From Candidatus Aenigmatarchaeota archaeon (GTDB taxonomy: Archaea > Aenigmatarchaeota > Aenigmatarchaeia > GW2011-AR5): DNA of 59,734 nt. The first letter of the stretch is position 1. The number at the start of each line of letters is the position of its first letter. A program made the position numbers and the translations under genes. The notes under the pieces were generated by a model. That model made no database searches, was not told the origin of the DNA, and was given only the letters and a program-made list of their open reading frames with translations. Below, piece after piece: positions 1 to 52,120 of this stretch. Where the stretch lies: NCBI GenBank assembly GCA_016184005.1, contig JACPDL010000005.1:1-59734 (forward strand). Reading direction: 5' to 3'.

Positions 1-30
1 AGCTAAATCGATTCATACGGATTCGTTCCT

Positions 31-75
31 GCAGGATGCACTAAACGTTCTAGCTTTGCTGGAACAGCATCCTGC
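31..75. repeat. Nested inverted repeat upstream of pheS
   Basis: Nine-bp arms GCAGGATGC and GCATCCTGC enclose a second hairpin, GTTCTAGC-TTT-GCTGGAAC (8 pairs, one of them G-T). It lies about 90 bp before pheS and at least 31 bp from the window edge. Its plan of a short stem, C-G closing pair and 3-nt loop resembles the hairpins near 29.5, 43.8 and 49.7 kb. Confidence 0.75.
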
Positions 76-105
76 ATTTTATTATTGTCTGTTAAGAATT
101 AGCAT

Positions 106-126
106 CCACCGTCTGAAGACAGGTGG
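106..126. repeat. Short hairpin with a covarying copy at 50641
   Basis: Arms CCACCGTCT and AGACAGGTGG flank a GA loop. A second copy at 50641-50661, on the other strand, differs by one G-C to A-T base-pair swap, so the stem is preserved. It sits about 40 bp before the pheS start and could be part of the 5' leader or a terminator of an upstream gene outside the window. Confidence 0.7.
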
Positions 127-164
127 AATTCGTTTTTAAAATATGAGTAAACAAGAGTGATATC

Positions 165-4093: not shown

Positions 4094-4849
4094 ATGAGTG
4101 CTGAATTAACAGAAGATATGGCAGAGTTTATCGGTATTCTACTAGGAGATGGTGGAATAAATAAAGGATTGAAAAATGTGGTAGTCCATAATGGTACCGA
4201 AGACTATTTTTATATGAATAACTATGTCAGATTGATGATTAAGAAATTGTTTAGTTTGGATGTAAAAGTAATAGATAGAAAGAGAAGAAATGAAATTCTA
4301 ATCAGAATTTCGTCTACTAAAGTATTTGGTCTGTTAACAAAGGATTATGGCTTATGGTCGGGTCCAAAACAAAATATTGGAATACCAGAAATTATAAAAA
4401 CTGCTTCTCAGGAAAATCGTTTTGCTTTCTTAAGAGGTCTTGCGGATAGTGACTTCTCGTTTATGTTTAAAAAGGGTGGTAAATATCCTATCGTACGAGC
4501 TAATTTTAAAAGTAAGAATCTAATAATTGACCTGAAAAGTATGTTTCTAGAATTAGGCTTTACTTGTTTTATAGAAACTGATAAAGAAAGAAGTTATAAA
4601 ACACGTTCGTGGATAACTAATGTTATTACTCTAAGCGGCCAAAAGAATTTATCAAAGTGGTTTAGTTACATAGGATCTTCCAATCCAAAACACTATACTA
4701 AATTTCTTATATGGAAATTAACAGGAGAATGTCAGCCATACACAAATTTGAAGCAAAGACTAAAAGTGTTAAAAAGAGTGGGCGCGACGGGATTCGAATT
4801 CGCGAATTATGGAGATTTCCTCAATAATTTCCCGCGACCCTCAGCTTAG
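4094..4849 (+). CDS. LAGLIDADG homing endonuclease, overlaps tRNA-Arg on the other strand
   Basis: A 251-residue two-motif LAGLIDADG protein. The motifs are FIGILLGDGG near residue 13 and FLRGLADSDFS near residue 115; the acidic residues would bind metal for DNA cleavage. One polypeptide with both motifs is expected to work as a monomer. The gene is visibly more AT-rich than its neighbours, a sign of recent arrival. Its last 24 codons run antisense through the 3' half of tRNA-Arg, and the TAG stop lies in the anticodon-loop sequence. That tail (GATGFEF...) is tRNA antisense rather than conserved protein. Such genes usually sit inside introns; this one lies beside its probable target. A short in-frame reading frame just upstream ends at ATGA on this start. 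Confidence 0.85.
   Translation: MSAELTEDMAEFIGILLGDGGINKGLKNVVVHNGTEDYFYMNNYVRLMIKKLFSLDVKVIDRKRRNEILIRISSTKVFGLLTKDYGLWSGPKQNIGIPEIIKTASQENRFAFLRGLADSDFSFMFKKGGKYPIVRANFKSKNLIIDLKSMFLELGFTCFIETDKERSYKTRSWITNVITLSGQKNLSKWFSYIGSSNPKHYTKFLIWKLTGECQPYTNLKQRLKVLKRVGATGFEFANYGDFLNNFPRPSA
4799..4830 (-). other. tRNA-Arg intron 2 (32 nt, T arm, position 53/54)
   Basis: The intron folds into a hairpin with AATTAT/ATAATT and GAG/CTC stems. Flanking it is a bulge-helix-bulge: central helix CGCG/CGCG, 5' bulge GG^A and 3' bulge AA^T. Cleavage between bulge bases 2 and 3 gives exactly the ends needed to rebuild the T stem and the TTCGAAT loop. Splicing would be by the archaeal tRNA endonuclease. The outer helix is weak, so the motif is the relaxed type. 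Confidence 0.85.
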
Positions 4850-4854
4850 AAGGC

Positions 4855-4869
4855 TTACACGCCAAAGCT
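4855..4869 (-). other. tRNA-Arg intron 1 (15 nt, anticodon stem, about 29/30)
   Basis: Excision joins TCA to GC and restores the fully paired anticodon stem TCAGC/GCTGA. The boundary can shift by one base because of flanking A residues. A relaxed bulge-helix-bulge is possible: GCAT pairs with GTGT (two wobbles), the bulges are CA^A and AA^G, and a GC/GC mini-stem has loop TTTG. At 15 nt it is among the shorter archaeal introns. Confidence 0.75.
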
Positions 4870-4925
4870 TGATGCTCTATCCAAACTGAGCTACGCGCCC
4901 ACAATTTACTATTCTGCAGAAAGTG

Positions 4926-27464: not shown

Positions 27465-28583
27465 TCATGCGCGGACAAGAAGCGATTTTATTTTTGGTGT
27501 TAGCGCGTAAACAAAAGTTTTCTCGCTCTGCTGGCGCTCTACGTAGCCGTCTGCAAGAAGCATTTTCAGGATATTATTAACGCTTCTAACAGCATGCTGG
27601 CGCGATTTGTATTTATCCAGGCTCAGAGAATCAGCAATCTGCCCTGGCGATAAAGAGCGCTGTGAAAGTGTCTCAACAATATCGCGCTGCATCGGCGTGA
27701 ATGTATCTAGGATTTCAAGCGAAACGCGCTCTTCTCTCTGTGGTTCAATATTTTCAATATATTCTTTTTTTATTTCTGTTTCACCTCTTAAAATTGCTTT
27801 TGTTACAAGTTCATCGCAAACCCGCAGGATTTCACGGGGAAAGCCGCCGCTTCTTGCGTGTATGAAATCCAGAAGTTCTTTGGAAAATTCATCGCCTGCA
27901 CCACCAACGTGCTTAATTCTCTTCCTTATCATTTCTTCTGTTTCTTCTTTTGTGAGGGATGCAAGGTCGATCTTTGCCACGATTCTTTTTCTGAATGTTT
28001 CCAGTTTATCCATCAGCCTGTCATCGAAAACAGGCAGGCCGGCCAGCACAAAGGAAATATTAGTTACCTGATCGCCAAGCACGCGCAGCCACTCAAGTGT
28101 CTCTACGCTTGCTTCGTGCACTTCGTCAATCATGATAACAAGATGCCTTCTTTTCAGTTTTTTGTTCAAGAAATCAGGCACCTGATAGATATTTTTAAGG
28201 CCCTGCTTGAACATGCTCATAGGCCATTTTATCTTGAATTTCTCGTTGAAAATCAGTGCAAAATCCTCTGGTTTTGAAGGCGGCTTGCCGATATAGAGGA
28301 TATCGTACGCCTTCCCAGACATCTTTTCCACCCATTTCAACAGGGTTGTTTTCCCGGATCCTGTAGGGCCCGAGACGAAGACAAACTTGTGTTTTTCGAG
28401 CAGCATAAGCAGAAGGCGGTTTATTTGTTCCTGGTAACCTACAAATAGGTAGGGGTATATGTTAAAAGTAAAGGGGTTTTCCTTCCATCTTTTTGTTTCA
28501 AACCACTTTTCAGGGCTTAATTGTTCTAATTTTTGCTGGCCTAAATGATTATTTTTATGTTCTGGCGCATCTTCGCTGTCCAT
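27465..28583 (-). CDS. AAA+ ATPase with C-terminal winged helix, ORC/TniB-like
   Basis: 372 residues. Walker A GPTGSGKTTLLKW near 72, Walker B VIMIDEVHE near 150, sensor 1 SFVLAGLP near 178, sensor 2-type arginine in GGFPREILRVCDEL near 252. A C-terminal winged helix follows (PMQRDIVETLSQRSLSPGQIADSLSLDKYKSRQHAVRSVNNIL). The arrangement resembles Cdc6/Orc and the ExeA/TniB ATPases. It is distinct from the orc1 at 44.5 kb, and sits directly downstream of a repeat-rich, iteron-like region, so it could initiate replication of an integrated element or serve as its regulator or transposition helper. Confidence 0.8.
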   Translation of the reverse strand: MDSEDAPEHKNNHLGQQKLEQLSPEKWFETKRWKENPFTFNIYPYLFVGYQEQINRLLLMLLEKHKFVFVSGPTGSGKTTLLKWVEKMSGKAYDILYIGKPPSKPEDFALIFNEKFKIKWPMSMFKQGLKNIYQVPDFLNKKLKRRHLVIMIDEVHEASVETLEWLRVLGDQVTNISFVLAGLPVFDDRLMDKLETFRKRIVAKIDLASLTKEETEEMIRKRIKHVGGAGDEFSKELLDFIHARSGGFPREILRVCDELVTKAILRGETEIKKEYIENIEPQREERVSLEILDTFTPMQRDIVETLSQRSLSPGQIADSLSLDKYKSRQHAVRSVNNILKMLLADGYVERQQSEKTFVYALTPKIKSLLVRA

Positions 28584-28713
28584 ACTTCATATAACTTCAC
28601 CAACTTTATATGTTTTGTTATCCTCAACTTCACAGGATGTTCACGGGGCTTCAGCAGAAACTGGCTTCAACTTCACGGAAATCATCAATTTTTCTTCATG
28701 AATTCACGTGAAC

Positions 28714-28751
28714 TTCATGAACTTCATGTGAATTCATATGAAGTTCGTGAA
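28714..28751. repeat. Imperfect inverted repeat TTCATGAACTTCAT / ATGAAGTTCGTGAA
   Basis: Two 14-bp arms, one mismatch, around a 10-bp centre that contains a GAATTC. It overlaps the first of the phased direct repeats. Confidence 0.8.
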
Positions 28752-28800
28752 GGTTTTGTGAAGGTTTTGTGAATACCTCGTGAAGGTCTTTGTGAAGGTA
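28747..28800 (+). repeat. Phased GTGAA direct repeats (iteron-like)
   Basis: GTGAAGGTTTT occurs at 28747 and 28758, followed by GTGAATACCTC at 28769, GTGAAGGTCTT at 28780 and GTGAAGGTA at 28792. The first four start exactly 11 bp apart and the last 12 bp further on, placing them on one face of the helix. The AAA+ gene starts 164 bp away on the minus strand. Confidence 0.8.
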
Positions 28801-28891
28801 ATTATGGCTTTTAGTGGGAATAGAACACTTGATTGTGAGTATTGCTATATTCTCTAACTAAGTTTTGTGAGGGTACGAATTTCATGTTCAC

Positions 28892-28963
28892 AGACCTTCA
28901 TGAAATCTTCATGCACCTTCACGGGATCTTCATGAAGATCCCGTGAAGTTCATATGAAGGTCT
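28892..28963. repeat. Nested palindrome with a 32-bp perfect core
   Basis: The core (28917-28948) is a perfect palindrome with arms CTTCACGGGATCTTCA and its complement, and no spacer. Outer arms AGACCTTCAT (28892-28901) and ATGAAGGTCT (28954-28963) add 10 bp. The arms contain the same TTCAC/GTGAAG words as the phased repeats. Confidence 0.85.
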
Positions 28964-29041
28964 AGTAGGTTAAAGATATGTCAGAAACTGGCTTTGGCTG
29001 GCTGCAAAAGTCTGCCGAAGCCTCACATAAGAGCTTCTTGG

Positions 29042-29058
29042 GAGAAGCGAAGCTTCTC
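29042..29058. repeat. Hairpin GAGAAGC-GAA-GCTTCTC
   Basis: Seven perfect pairs and a GAA loop, 5 bp beyond the stop of the minus-strand HTH gene. It could terminate or stabilise that transcript. The first stem of the array at 29508 has almost the same arm. Confidence 0.75.
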
Positions 29059-29063
29059 TGAGA

Positions 29064-29369
29064 TTATTCGCCCGGCTGGTTGATTAATTTGAGGATCTTG
29101 AGAATCTGCTGCACGCTACGGCCTTCTGCAAGCTTCTCAATGACGAAGGGCTTCAGCCGCACCACACGCAACATTGTTTTGCTCTCTCCTGCCAAACTGA
29201 CGTCTTCTATTAATGGTCTCAAAAGGGTATCAATATACTTAGTAACAGTATGATTGTCCATTCCTGTCTCTCTGGCAATCCTCCGAATCCACACACCATC
29301 TTGATTGGTATGCAAAAACTCTATAATTGCAGCTATTTTCTTCTCGTCAAAGCCTTTCTTTCTACCCAT
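29064..29369 (-). CDS. Winged-helix DNA-binding protein, 101 residues
   Basis: Residues 1-85 form a winged helix: GFDEKKIAAIIEFLHTNQDG, the recognition region WIRRIARETGMDNHTVTKYIDTLL, wing MLRVVRLKP, then a C-terminal helix. The reading frame stays open upstream to 29759, but the region before 29369 is the hairpin array and reads as low-quality protein. MGRKKGFDEKK is therefore the better start. It lies next to the AAA+/repeat module on the same strand as the ATPase and may be its partner regulator. Confidence 0.75.
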   Translation of the reverse strand: MGRKKGFDEKKIAAIIEFLHTNQDGVWIRRIARETGMDNHTVTKYIDTLLRPLIEDVSLAGESKTMLRVVRLKPFVIEKLAEGRSVQQILKILKLINQPGE

Positions 29370-29700
29370 ATCAAATAGATTCCCCACCTGGGAATATAAA
29401 GTTATGTGCCGCCAAAATAGCCTAGAAATGCAGAATTTTGATGTCTTTGAAGCTGCATGGCTATCTCTCACGAATCCGGCAAAGACGCCAATCTTGGCCC
29501 AATCTTGGGAGAAGCTTCGCTTCTCCGAGATCTTCAGAGAAACGAAGTTTCTCTGAGATTCCGAAATCCCTTTGGATTTCGAGAATTCCAAAAAGCTAAC
29601 GCTTTTTGAGAATAGTGCCGTATGGCTGGGTTGTGCTGCATTCATTGTGATGAGGATAATCCGCAGCCAGAAACTTAAACGTATCTGACAAAATAATTTC
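29370..29700. other. 331-bp intergenic region with hairpin array
   Basis: Contains an ATAGCC-ATGCAG / CTGCAT-GGCTAT inverted repeat (29417-29464), a direct repeat of CCAATCTTGG near 29490-29507, and the four-hairpin array at 29508-29608. Both strands lack stop codons over parts of it, which creates spurious frames. Confidence 0.65.
29508..29608. repeat. Tandem array of four hairpins, exact 27-bp period
   Basis: Units start at 29508, 29535, 29562 and 29589. Stems: GGAGAAGC/GCTTCTCC (loop TTC), CAGAGAAAC/GTTTCTCTG (loop GAA), CGAAATCC/GGATTTCG (loop CTTT), CAAAAAGC/GCTTTTTG (loop TAAC). Linkers are alike (GAGATCTT, AGATTC, AGAATTC). Each stem is perfect, but the sequences differ between units. 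Confidence 0.9.
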
Positions 29701-43714: not shown

Positions 43715-43838
43715 CTGCAAAGAACGAAGTTCTTCTTGCAGAAACCAAAGGTTTCTGAAGACTCAGGAAAGCTCTGCTTTCCTCGAGTTGAGACCTCAGA
43801 GAACTTTCAGTTCTCTGCAGAAAACCGTAGGTTGTTCT
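43715..43838. repeat. Cluster of five hairpins between thiolase and DUF35
   Basis: Stems: CTGCAA-AGAAC/GTTCT..TTGCAG with loop GAA (43715-43741), CAGAAACC/GGTTTCTG loop AAA (43739-43757), AGGAAAGC/GCTTTCCT loop TCT extended by ACTC/GAGT (43761-43788), CAGAGAACT/AGTTCTCTG loop TTC (43797-43817), AGAAAACC/GGTTgTTCT loop GTA (43819-43838). It occupies most of the 198-bp gap between two operon partners. Confidence 0.9.
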
Positions 43839-49630: not shown

Positions 49631-49645
49631 TACGCTCTTAATACC

Positions 49646-49838
49646 CCCACGACCAAAGTCGTGGGTTTCTTGAGCATGTCATCCAGAAAGCATTGAGTTT
49701 CATCTGCTGCCTAATCCTGAATCAAGCAAAGCTTGATTTGGATTCATTAGAAAATCTATGAGATTTTCTATGCACCAAAATAGCTTTGCTGTTTCGAGTG
49801 TCTCAACCTTTGCAGAAAAGGCAGCATTTTTCAATGCT
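49646..49838. repeat. Hairpin cluster downstream of polB
   Basis: CCCACGAC/GTCGTGGG, loop CAAA (49646-49665), followed by TTTC and likely a polB terminator; AATCAAGC/GCTTGATT, loop AAA, with outer AATCC/GGATT (49713-49744); AGAAAATCT-type arms TAGAAAATCT/AGATTTTCTA, loop ATG (49748-49770); AAAATAGC/GCTGTTTC, loop TTT, imperfect (49778-49795); AGCATT/AATGCT (49823-49838). Confidence 0.85.
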
Positions 49839-49880
49839 TCCTCGGATAAATATATATAGTTCTCAAGTGAAGAATAAATT

Positions 49881-50087
49881 ATGTCAAACAGACACATCAA
49901 GATAATAAACGGCAGAAGATATTACTACGAGTCTATCAGAAGAGGCAAGAAAGTTACCAGCAAATATTTAGGCCCCGTTGACGAAAGAAAAAGAAAGCCA
50001 AGAAAAGTGAATATTCAGCAAACCGAGGAAACAAAACAAGAGAGCCAGCCAGAGCAGCCACAAGAAGAGCAGGAGTACATCGGATAA
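49881..50087 (+). CDS. Small basic protein with acidic tail, 68 residues
   Basis: Residues 1-32 are basic and aromatic (HIKIINGRRYYYESIRRGKKVTSKYLGPV), a pattern also seen at the N-terminus of archaeal nucleic-acid-related proteins; the remainder is acidic and glutamine-rich. No family named. It lies between the polB hairpin cluster and a convergent small gene. Confidence 0.55.
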   Translation: MSNRHIKIINGRRYYYESIRRGKKVTSKYLGPVDERKRKPRKVNIQQTEETKQESQPEQPQEEQEYIG

Positions 50088-50110
50088 ACTTTTCTTTTAT
50101 TCAAATGTAA

Positions 50111-50305
50111 TTACCAAGATTTCATTGGTGGATCATATTCGTATTCATTCTCGCCACAACCGCACCGAGTCTTCATGACAAATCCTTCTTCAACAAGTTC
50201 TTTCAAGATTTTCTTTGCCGTCTCTAAATCCTTATCTTGAATTTTCAAGTCGTTTACAATGTTACTGAAATGAATGTCCCATTTATTTTCAAGATAAGAT
50301 TTCAT
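50111..50305 (-). CDS. Small helical protein with Cys motif, 64 residues
   Basis: Helix-rich (LENKWDIHFSNIVNDLKIQDKDLETAKKILKELVEEGFVM) with a terminal RCGCGENEYEYDPP. It resembles a minimal helix-turn-helix with a short Cys patch. The start ATG follows AAAGGTGAG on the minus strand. Function unknown. It lies 23 bp from the previous gene's stop in convergent orientation. Confidence 0.6.
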   Translation of the reverse strand: MKSYLENKWDIHFSNIVNDLKIQDKDLETAKKILKELVEEGFVMKTRCGCGENEYEYDPPMKSW

Positions 50306-50389
50306 CTCACCTTTGCTTACGATAAAACCACCTACTAGAAAATTACAATAATTATGAAATAAAATTAAAAATAAAAAAAGTTTTGAAAT

Positions 50390-50566
50390 TCAGATATCTC
50401 TTCCTTTTATCGTTGATCTCCTGTTAGCTTTGGCTCTTTCTGCTGCGCGATCAACAAGCTTCACAACTTCTTTGCTTAATGCTTCGGCAGCATCTCCGCC
50501 AAGGTTCATTTTCTTTTTCTTAGCGTATTCACGAACCTTACTTTTTACAACCAACATTTCTGCCAT
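50390..50566 (-). CDS. Histone-fold-like protein, 58 residues
   Basis: MAEMLVVKSKVREYAKKKK then GDAAEALSKEVVKLVDRAAERAKANRRSTIKGRDI resemble archaeal histone-fold proteins of the DUF1931/HMf-like group: a basic N-terminal helix, long central helix, and the final RRSTIKGRD strand-turn. I chose ATG 50566 because GGAGGT lies 7 bp upstream of it. It would bind DNA as a dimer. The hairpin-rich region lies upstream of this gene. Confidence 0.75.
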   Translation of the reverse strand: MAEMLVVKSKVREYAKKKKMNLGGDAAEALSKEVVKLVDRAAERAKANRRSTIKGRDI

Positions 50567-50629
50567 TTTTATACCTCCCATAAAAGATTTGACCAGAACC
50601 TTTTAAAACTACATCGCATCGTTCTTGAT

Positions 50630-50681
50630 ACCTTAACATACCACCTATCTTCAGATGGTGGTATTATGTGGCATGTTAGGT
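50630..50681. repeat. Nested hairpin, covarying partner of 106-126
   Basis: Outer arms ACCTtAACAT (50630-50639) and ATGTTAGGT (50673-50681) enclose the inner hairpin ACCACC...GGTGGT with ATCT/AGAT and a TC loop (50640-50662). Confidence 0.8.
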
Positions 50682-50731
50682 GTAAAAAACACTGCTGTAC
50701 TATAATGGCATCTTTCATAAATTTCAAGATA

Positions 50732-50751
50732 CCACTGCATTCCTGCAGTGG
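50732..50751. repeat. Hairpin CCACTGCA-TTCC-TGCAGTGG
   Basis: Eight perfect pairs and a TTCC loop, in the same 360-bp region. Confidence 0.8.
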
Positions 50752-50761
50752 CTTTTCACAT

Positions 50762-50785
50762 AACCCACAACTTAAGTTGTGGGTT
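50762..50785. repeat. 24-bp perfect palindrome
   Basis: Arms AACCCACAACTT and its reverse complement. The stem CCCACAAC/GTTGTGGG plus following TTTGTTGA resembles the hairpin at 49646-49665 and its downstream flank, with paired changes. Confidence 0.85.
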
Positions 50786-50803
50786 TGTTGAACGATGTGA
50801 TCC

Positions 50804-50914
50804 CAACATTGTTTATGTAGTACAAAGTGAAATTCCTGATTTCACTTTGTACAAGGAAGAACGGAGTTCTTCCTTGTATCTACCGACTAAAGCCGGTAGT
50901 TTTAAACAATGTTG
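50804..50914. repeat. Three hairpins inside a 12-bp outer stem (four-way junction)
   Basis: Outer arms CAACATTGTTTA (50804-50815) and TAAACAATGTTG (50903-50914). Inside: a 14-bp stem GTACAAAGTGAAAT/ATTTCACTTTGTAC (50820-50852), a 12-bp stem ACAAGGAAGAAC/GTTCTTCCTTGT with loop GGA (50851-50877), and CTACCG/CGGTAG (50880-50899). The first two share two bases. Confidence 0.9.
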
Positions 50915-50926
50915 AGGATAAGAAAA

Positions 50927-52120
50927 TCAAAAACCGGCATAAAACAGGATAGTGGGCAAAATAAGGACGCCCATCATCGCTCCACGCTTGATATTGGCAA
51001 GATTGACAAAAACGCCGAAAGCGGCAGTTGTAGCAAGCAGCAGAACACCAAAGAAACCGGTAAACGCAAGCGTCAAAAAAACGATGAAACATATTATTGC
51101 AGCACTACATTTTGAATAATTTATCTTTTCCAGCAGGGCGAGACATTTTTTGGCTACCAGTAAGGTCAATACAACAGACAAACCTGTACAAAGAACCGAA
51201 ACGGCCGCAATAAACAAAACCTCATTGAAACCTATAGTAAAAAGCTGGTCTACAACAACAGCAGCACCGCTCCTGGGTCTGCCGATAAGCCATAAGCTTA
51301 GTATAGACAGAAAAATATTTGCAACGGATATAGCCCCAATCGCAACCAAGAAAGACTTCTCGTTCTTGTCCCTGCTCATTACTGCGGCAATCTGGCTTGA
51401 ACCCACGCCAGGGAGGAAGCCGGCCAACACACCCCCCAAAGAGCCCTTCAAAACAGAACCGCTGAGGGTTTTTTGCGAAACGTATATTTCCTTTTTCGAC
51501 TGTTTTGGTATTGAAGATTTTTTACTTATTTGCAAAACTAATGTACTGATCCCGAAAAAACCTGAAAGTATTGGAAAAAGAAGCAGTATGTTGTCCATGG
51601 GCAAATTAAGACTGGCGAGCCCGACAGCGCCGGAAAAAAGAAACACAAAAACAGCCAAGGCCTTTTTCTTCAAAGTATTTTCCGTCATGACAATTATCAA
51701 AGAAACCCCCATCAAAAGGAAATGTATAAACGGCCTTATCAACCCGTACAGAGGCGGAACAGAAAGAAACAAGGCGGGCATCAGGATTACAGTGAAAACA
51801 CCGGCCCCGAGAGCCCCTATCACAGAAAGTTTTACGGCGTCATATCCGTGGCCGCTCAGCAGCATTTTGTGGCCGGGCAAAACAGACATTTCGTTTCCTG
51901 GTTCCGGAGCACCAAGCAATATGGACGGCACGAAAGACATTATTGCGTTCGACACGCTCATAGACACGACAAAAGCAAGCAGAGGCAGTAAAGGGATGCC
52001 AAGAAAACCCATGAAAGGTACCAGGAGAACAATCATATTCGGATGTATGCCCGGCAAAATCCCGAAAACAGTACCTGCGCAAAAACCCAAGAAAAGAAAA
52101 AGAAGTATTTCCACCAGCAT
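50927..52120 (-). CDS. TctA-like membrane transporter (DUF112)
   Basis: 397 residues with about ten to twelve transmembrane segments. The N-terminal LGFCAGTVFGILPGIHPNMIVLLVPFMGF and the internal LKGSLGGVLAGFLPGVGSSQIAAVMSR are the paired signatures of TctA/DUF112 proteins, which move tricarboxylates in tripartite systems in bacteria. No TctB or TctC is encoded nearby, so the substrate and partners are unknown. Divergent from the NAC gene. Confidence 0.88.
   Translation of the reverse strand: MLVEILLFLFLGFCAGTVFGILPGIHPNMIVLLVPFMGFLGIPLLPLLAFVVSMSVSNAIMSFVPSILLGAPEPGNEMSVLPGHKMLLSGHGYDAVKLSVIGALGAGVFTVILMPALFLSVPPLYGLIRPFIHFLLMGVSLIIVMTENTLKKKALAVFVFLFSGAVGLASLNLPMDNILLLFPILSGFFGISTLVLQISKKSSIPKQSKKEIYVSQKTLSGSVLKGSLGGVLAGFLPGVGSSQIAAVMSRDKNEKSFLVAIGAISVANIFLSILSLWLIGRPRSGAAVVVDQLFTIGFNEVLFIAAVSVLCTGLSVVLTLLVAKKCLALLEKINYSKCSAAIICFIVFLTLAFTGFFGVLLLATTAAFGVFVNLANIKRGAMMGVLILPTILFYAGF

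Follow-up and report, generated by a model that had tools for sequence, protein, structure and literature searches.

End hairpins, a target on the left flank and the absence of target duplication form the signature of IS200/IS605-type single-strand transposition. This signature has been summarised for the archaeal PATEs (PMC3119063), and the PATEs and SMRs of Haloquadratum include 52-bp terminal-only forms that may still move (PMC3119063). Here we describe a dispersed family of hairpin elements with precise ends, an asymmetric target and no target duplication, whose copies were recently gained or lost, nest within one another and also occur in frame in genes. A four-hairpin array (Table 1) is one copy of this dispersed, recently mobile, transposase-free element. 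We consider it likely that the array is a non-autonomous mobile DNA element made mostly of hairpins, which most likely moves as single-stranded DNA and would be recognised in trans mainly by its shape.

The window, the whole stretch of 59,734 nucleotides that was analysed, is contig 1 of the host's 919-kb draft genome (G000, five contigs). Aenigmatarchaeota are DPANN archaea, and the closest named relative of the host is Candidatus Aenigmatarchaeota archaeon RIFCSPHIGHO2_01_FULL_AR5_44_11 (G001), with a 97% identical radA protein. Aligned DNA of the two genomes, both metagenome-assembled drafts, is about 94% identical. The indel comparison covered roughly 643 kb of the relative; the array's orthologous locus there is L089. 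The hairpin survey covered all G000 contigs, and G000 gene calls are mechanical except those backed by Pfam or alignment.

Table 1. Positions of the array, its parts and related features (window coordinates unless a contig is named).
Feature	Position	Strand	Remarks
Whole mobile element	29503..29612	-	Ends common to 32 copies; boundaries from empty sites in the relative
hp1, right-end hairpin	29508..29526		GGAGAAGC/GCTTCTCC, 8 bp, loop TTC (relative: GAA)
hp2, inner hairpin	29534..29556		10 bp, loop GAA
hp3, inner hairpin	29562..29581		CGAAATCC/GGATTTCG, 8 bp, loop CTTT
hp4, left-end hairpin	29589..29608		CAAAAAGC/GCTTTTTG, 8 bp, loop TAAC
Inner two-hairpin unit, 55 nt	29531..29585		Missing from orthologous locus L089 of the relative
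Left-flank target of the array copy	29613..29617	-	CACTA; consensus CWAWA
Lone right-end-type hairpin of the array's family	29036..29065		At stop codon of HTH gene; relative has it too; perfect-hairpin scan gives 29042-29058
Second hairpin array, like architecture, different stems	43734..43817		Covariance model 65 bits; perfect-hairpin scan gives 43739-43817
Third double hairpin, like architecture	49744..49800		Covariance model 38 bits; perfect-hairpin scan gives 49720-49770
Further hairpin cluster	50732..50878		Perfect-hairpin scan
AAA ATPase gene	27465-28583		AAA_22, weak ORC-like
IS copies at contig ends	Window 1-140; starts of G000 contigs C1, C3, C5, C2; ends of C3, C4

The element spans 110 nt, corresponding to a 108-nt form with two additional loop bases. 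It reads TTCTC...CCAAGA on the minus strand, with its left end at 29612 and its right end at 29503. The first-pass annotation had reported four perfect-stem hairpins, and we recovered all four. Shuffled windows never held a cluster of more than two hairpins, so random controls do not reproduce the array, and the array folds strongly on both strands (z of -5.5 and -5.9 against dinucleotide shuffles). The exact 27-bp period claimed for it fits the stem starts only when hp2 is taken to begin at 29535. It does not fit the centre spacings, which are 28, 26.5 and 27, as would be expected with one unit of 26-nt spacing nested within another. The stems are also less unrelated than had been stated: hp1 resembles hp2 and the lone copy near the HTH gene (family D3), and stems recur across the genome. 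Because they are perfect and drawn from a genome-wide vocabulary, the decay of one ancestral repeat does not explain them. We agree with the first-pass view that ordinary tandem repeats and CRISPR can both be set aside: Tandem Repeats Finder reports nothing at 29508-29608, there are no identical repeats with unrelated spacers, and the stems come from a reused vocabulary.

Hairpins are in excess throughout the host genome. With stems of at least 9 bp, 201 perfect hairpins were found against about 10 in Markov controls; with stems of at least 7 bp, the figures are 672 and about 200. They form 106 clusters of two or more, whose centre spacing peaks sharply at 26 nt. Their arms belong to a limited, reused vocabulary (GAGAAGC 41 times, AAAAAGC 32, AGAAAGC 19, GAAATCC 17 and many rarer), in which 5' arms are purine-rich and end in C. 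Both genomes are drafts, which would be the opening for chance clustering or an assembly artefact, but given this excess, the same architecture in other genera and the coherent ends and targets we regard such an origin as negligible.

The basic unit is 54 nt long and consists of two bulged hairpins about 26 nt apart, with variable stems. A one-base bulge lies on the 5' side of the left hairpin and on the 3' side of the right one, and the unit is therefore dyad-symmetric. Larger copies measure 108 nt, with a second hairpin pair nested inside the first. Across an alignment of 31 distinct ungapped 55-nt units, standard pairs make up 94.9% of pair cells and each of the 22 pair positions varies in both partners, in line with the first-pass view of a conserved shape with variable stems. 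The inner 8-bp stems were picked as perfect, and the only independent evidence of pairing is that of the outer 3-bp stems, which were not picked; these pair and covary, five of the six pairs in about 77-90% of units and the sixth in 61%. No GTAG or CGTC tag occurs in the alignment. A covariance model of the unit gave 240 matches in G000, counting both strands, which score alike under the model.

Some of these properties could also suggest a conserved structured RNA or a regulatory hairpin array (a terminator, riboswitch-like element or processing signal) selected locally for the fold of its transcript. Both strands fold strongly, and relatively few arrays fall in divergent intergenic gaps (7/73 against 129/473, p=0.0007), so that many lie 3' of genes. 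However, mirror symmetry by itself makes the strands score alike, and avoidance of promoters is expected from purifying selection on insertions. Moreover, copies lie inside coding regions too, they are gained or lost between 94%-identical genomes, and the array matches no known RNA family, the one Rfam match in the window being a tRNA elsewhere. We therefore judge an RNA function very unlikely as the explanation. Comparing G-U with A-C mismatches is useless for detecting RNA selection, since every G-T appears as an A-C when the opposite strand is read. The tRNA itself (4779-4900, minus strand, 122 nt) was missed by ARAGORN and probably contains an intron; an ORF overlapping it on the plus strand (4094-4849) resembles, by its sequence, a putative homing endonuclease gene.

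Comparison with the relative points to recent mobility. Of the 112 clean indels that span 20 nt or more in a single gap, 68 contain perfect hairpins and may be gains or losses, and the commonest sizes are 54 nt (12 times) and 108 nt (6 times). Empty sites consist of the joined flanks with no target duplication: where G000 reads cataa[108 nt]ttgag, for instance, the relative reads cataattgag. The element has palindromes near both ends and is too short for a transposase gene. At L089 the relative carries only the outer pair, hp1 and hp4, without the inner 55 nt. Near 104590 on contig C4 of G000, a third pair of exactly 54 nt lies between the inner hairpins and is absent from the relative. The array is a nest of two-hairpin units, and this explains both its period of about 27 and its shared linkers. 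The period therefore calls for no selection or writing confined to the array. As for the broader proposal of selection on shape or a mechanism that writes palindromes, copying gains some support from the inverted loops described below, but the array itself belongs, as a single copy, to a dispersed mobile element.

Other hairpin families are present in these genomes. At 49640-50930 of the window, and at many loci of G000 and G001, we observed further double-hairpin families of 102-119 nt with TAAA/TTTA loops, stems CTGCTGTC, CCACCGAC and CCCACGAC, and TT^AT targets; units of the 54-nt type are inserted in their loops or linkers. A frequent pyrimidine-rich hairpin, CCTTTTCTTT...AAAGAAAAGG, adjoins arrays (G000 contig C4 at 209989 and 359806, contig C5 at 66559, and others) and is possibly another repeat family.

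The ends and target were defined from 32 distinct copies with TTCTC...CCAAGA ends, the largest family. On the left flank, C stands at -5 in 24/32, A or T at -4 in 31/32, A at -3 in 27/32 and A at -1 in 24/32 (binomial p about 1e-10 each for C at -5 and A at -3). The right flank is weak, with T at +1 alone standing out (22/32). The resulting consensus, CWAWA to the left of TTCTC, is thus confined to one side, and wherever the empty site is readable the flank pre-exists the insertion.

Most copies are intergenic, and several are read in the same frame within protein genes. Two proteins of the relative have inserts that G000 lacks: in an MFS transporter (MFS_1, E 1e-73), GRSEASPRSQKAALFE separates the two halves of the protein, and in a DNA alkylation repair enzyme (DNA_alkylation) the insert has 36 residues. 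Conversely, G000 has a 36-residue insert in a PKD-domain protein that the relative lacks, 18 additional residues in a membrane ORF, and an insert in the N-terminal linker of an FtsY-like GTPase (SRP54/FtsY), with a related insert nearby in the relative. The MFS transporter, the DNA alkylation repair enzyme and the FtsY-like GTPase are predicted to contain the element peptide GRSEASPRSSEK. The inserts are 18 or 36 residues long and built of 27-nt halves. Selection for reading frame is nevertheless unlikely to be the source of the 27-nt unit: intergenic insertions also measure 54 or 108 nt, and the length is therefore a property of the element.

The covariance model matched 32 of 59 related genomes, with copy numbers from zero to at least about 97 per genome. 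Even sister species differ strongly in copy number, one genus containing species with 1 and with 34-39. GW2011_AR5 has 36 matches, and the geometry recurs in a second genus (G004), where some of the stems differ. Phylum-wide, 22 of the 115 genomes sampled had matches, mostly in the same order. A few Pacearchaeota genomes gave weaker matches, which may be independent of the Aenigmatarchaeota element.

We searched for an enzyme that could mobilise the element. One version of the preferred reading is that resident IS200/IS605 Y1 transposases move the elements, which would then be strict terminal-only PATEs. Y1_Tnp (PF01797) is present in the host genome and the relative; the missing duplication, end hairpins and left-flank target all fit, and Haloquadratum PATEs shrink to a similarly terminal-only 52 bp while perhaps still moving (PMC3119063). 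However, Y1_Tnp was not detected in six element-rich drafts (G004, G005, G010, G015, G026 and G030, with 59-97 element matches each among those listed), and across 59 genomes its presence was not significantly associated with that of elements (p=0.19). We therefore rejected Y1 transposase as an obligatory resident enzyme; the Y1-less, element-rich genomes weaken the Y1 model rather than dispose of it, because the drafts are incomplete. The relative's one clear IS copy and the multicopy IS at contig borders, few copies in all, have end hairpins with other stems (CCACCG...). Taken together, this version strikes us as possible but somewhat doubtful. The contigs end in IS200/IS605-type copies with CACCGTCTGAAGACAGGTGG / CACCGTATAAATACGGTGG hairpins and a Y1_Tnp fragment, and the assembly breaks there because these IS are multicopy.

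Other candidates were set aside. The host genome has no RVT_1, so a reverse transcriptase was rejected, and the neighbouring HTH gene was rejected as a linked mobiliser since 40 of 59 relatives have conserved it, element-free genomes included. No autonomous copy with TTCTC...CCAAGA ends was found; the sole long left-end/right-end pair is the window locus itself, flanking the ordinary HTH gene. Orientation along the contigs gave no pattern of lagging-strand bias, and for the sequences tried neither plasmids nor viral contigs yielded a copy. Between the AAA ATPase gene and the HTH gene, dense degenerate repeats of the TTCATGAA / GTGAAGGT type (28580-28970) are conserved in L089; they could be a replication origin or a cluster of binding sites.

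These searches (RVT_1, Y1_Tnp, an autonomous copy) yielded no mobiliser, as would be expected if no enzyme were involved and the elements were selfish repeats that repair copies, multiplying through recombination, replication slippage and template switching alone. Flipped loops and perfect arms do suggest template switching at hairpins. The fixed 54/108 size, the fixed ends and the asymmetric target, however, are hard to obtain without a cut guided by sequence or structure, and we think an enzyme-free spread unlikely.

Under the preferred reading of a mobile element moved in trans, a left-end and a right-end hairpin make up the 54-nt element, and a second two-hairpin unit nested between them gives the 108-110-nt form. 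Movement would most likely be as single-stranded DNA. A trans-acting enzyme may be guided to the hairpins more by their folded, bulged shape than by their sequence, cut at the foot of the left hairpin and insert the element on the 3' side of a short A/T-rich target (CWAWA in the array's family), which would not be duplicated. Stem sequence would then be almost free to drift. Matched arms could be maintained in two ways: only well-folded copies would move again, and template switching within a hairpin may copy one arm from the other, sometimes inverting the loop.

Orthologous hairpins offer a view of this upkeep. Two array hairpins clearly combine an unchanged stem with a reverse-complemented loop (TTC against GAA); the loop of hp1 is also inverted relative to L089, where one stem base differs too. 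Hairpins probably flip in place, because an inversion is more probable than three substitutions at once. Template switching within the hairpin would both flip loops and copy arm onto arm. Single-sided stem changes also occur between orthologous hairpins, and arm correction on site is therefore incomplete. A stronger proposal, improbable in our estimation, is that transposition depends on shape only, with an enzyme other than the known Y1 transposases acting on a pair of 8-bp bulged hairpins about 26 nt apart, almost whatever the stem, and with stems renewed from arm to arm.

A DPANN lineage thus carries a very active, minimal, hairpin-only mobile DNA. Its elements are the source of most clean small indels between two close species and have added 18- or 36-residue peptides to apparently working proteins. 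With its fixed geometry and variable stems, the element lends itself naturally to testing whether the shape of the DNA, as opposed to its sequence, can govern transposition, and how perfect palindromes stay perfect. It is also a warning against taking hairpins in these genomes straight away for terminators or RNA genes.

Small palindromic mobile DNA is already known, and a partial literature search returned no description of this element; the minimal, hairpin-only, stem-variable, nested archaeal form with in-frame copies appears undescribed. Like PATEs and SMRs, the element is archaeal, is too short for a transposase, has palindromes near its ends, does not duplicate its target and nests in palindromes of other elements (PMC3119063). 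Unlike PATEs, it has end hairpins that differ from those of the IS copies seen, stems that vary freely around a fixed 54/108-nt geometry, and in-frame gene insertions. With the REP/BIME/REPIN sequences mobilised with RAYT it shares paired inverted hairpins, compensatory changes, intragenic copies and clusters (PMC3116915, PMC3733652), but it differs in lacking a GTAG/CGTC tag and in its diverse stems, fixed pair spacing of about 26 nt and archaeal host. The Rickettsia palindromic elements (RPE) likewise place palindromic DNA in frame in unrelated protein genes as a recurring peptide, a likeness drawn from published descriptions (PMC10969869, PMC3733652). RPEs are about 150 bp, whereas the inserts here are 18 or 36 residues of 27-nt halves in a mostly intergenic family. 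For the double-hairpin elements of mitochondrial DNA, we know of no fixed target motif or nesting rule. Those of Allomyces, and the repetitive hairpin elements of sponges, are also two-hairpin mobile units and likewise lack flanking duplication (PMC2800124, citing Paquin et al. 2000). They reside in organelle genomes, whereas the element described here is carried on an archaeal chromosome.
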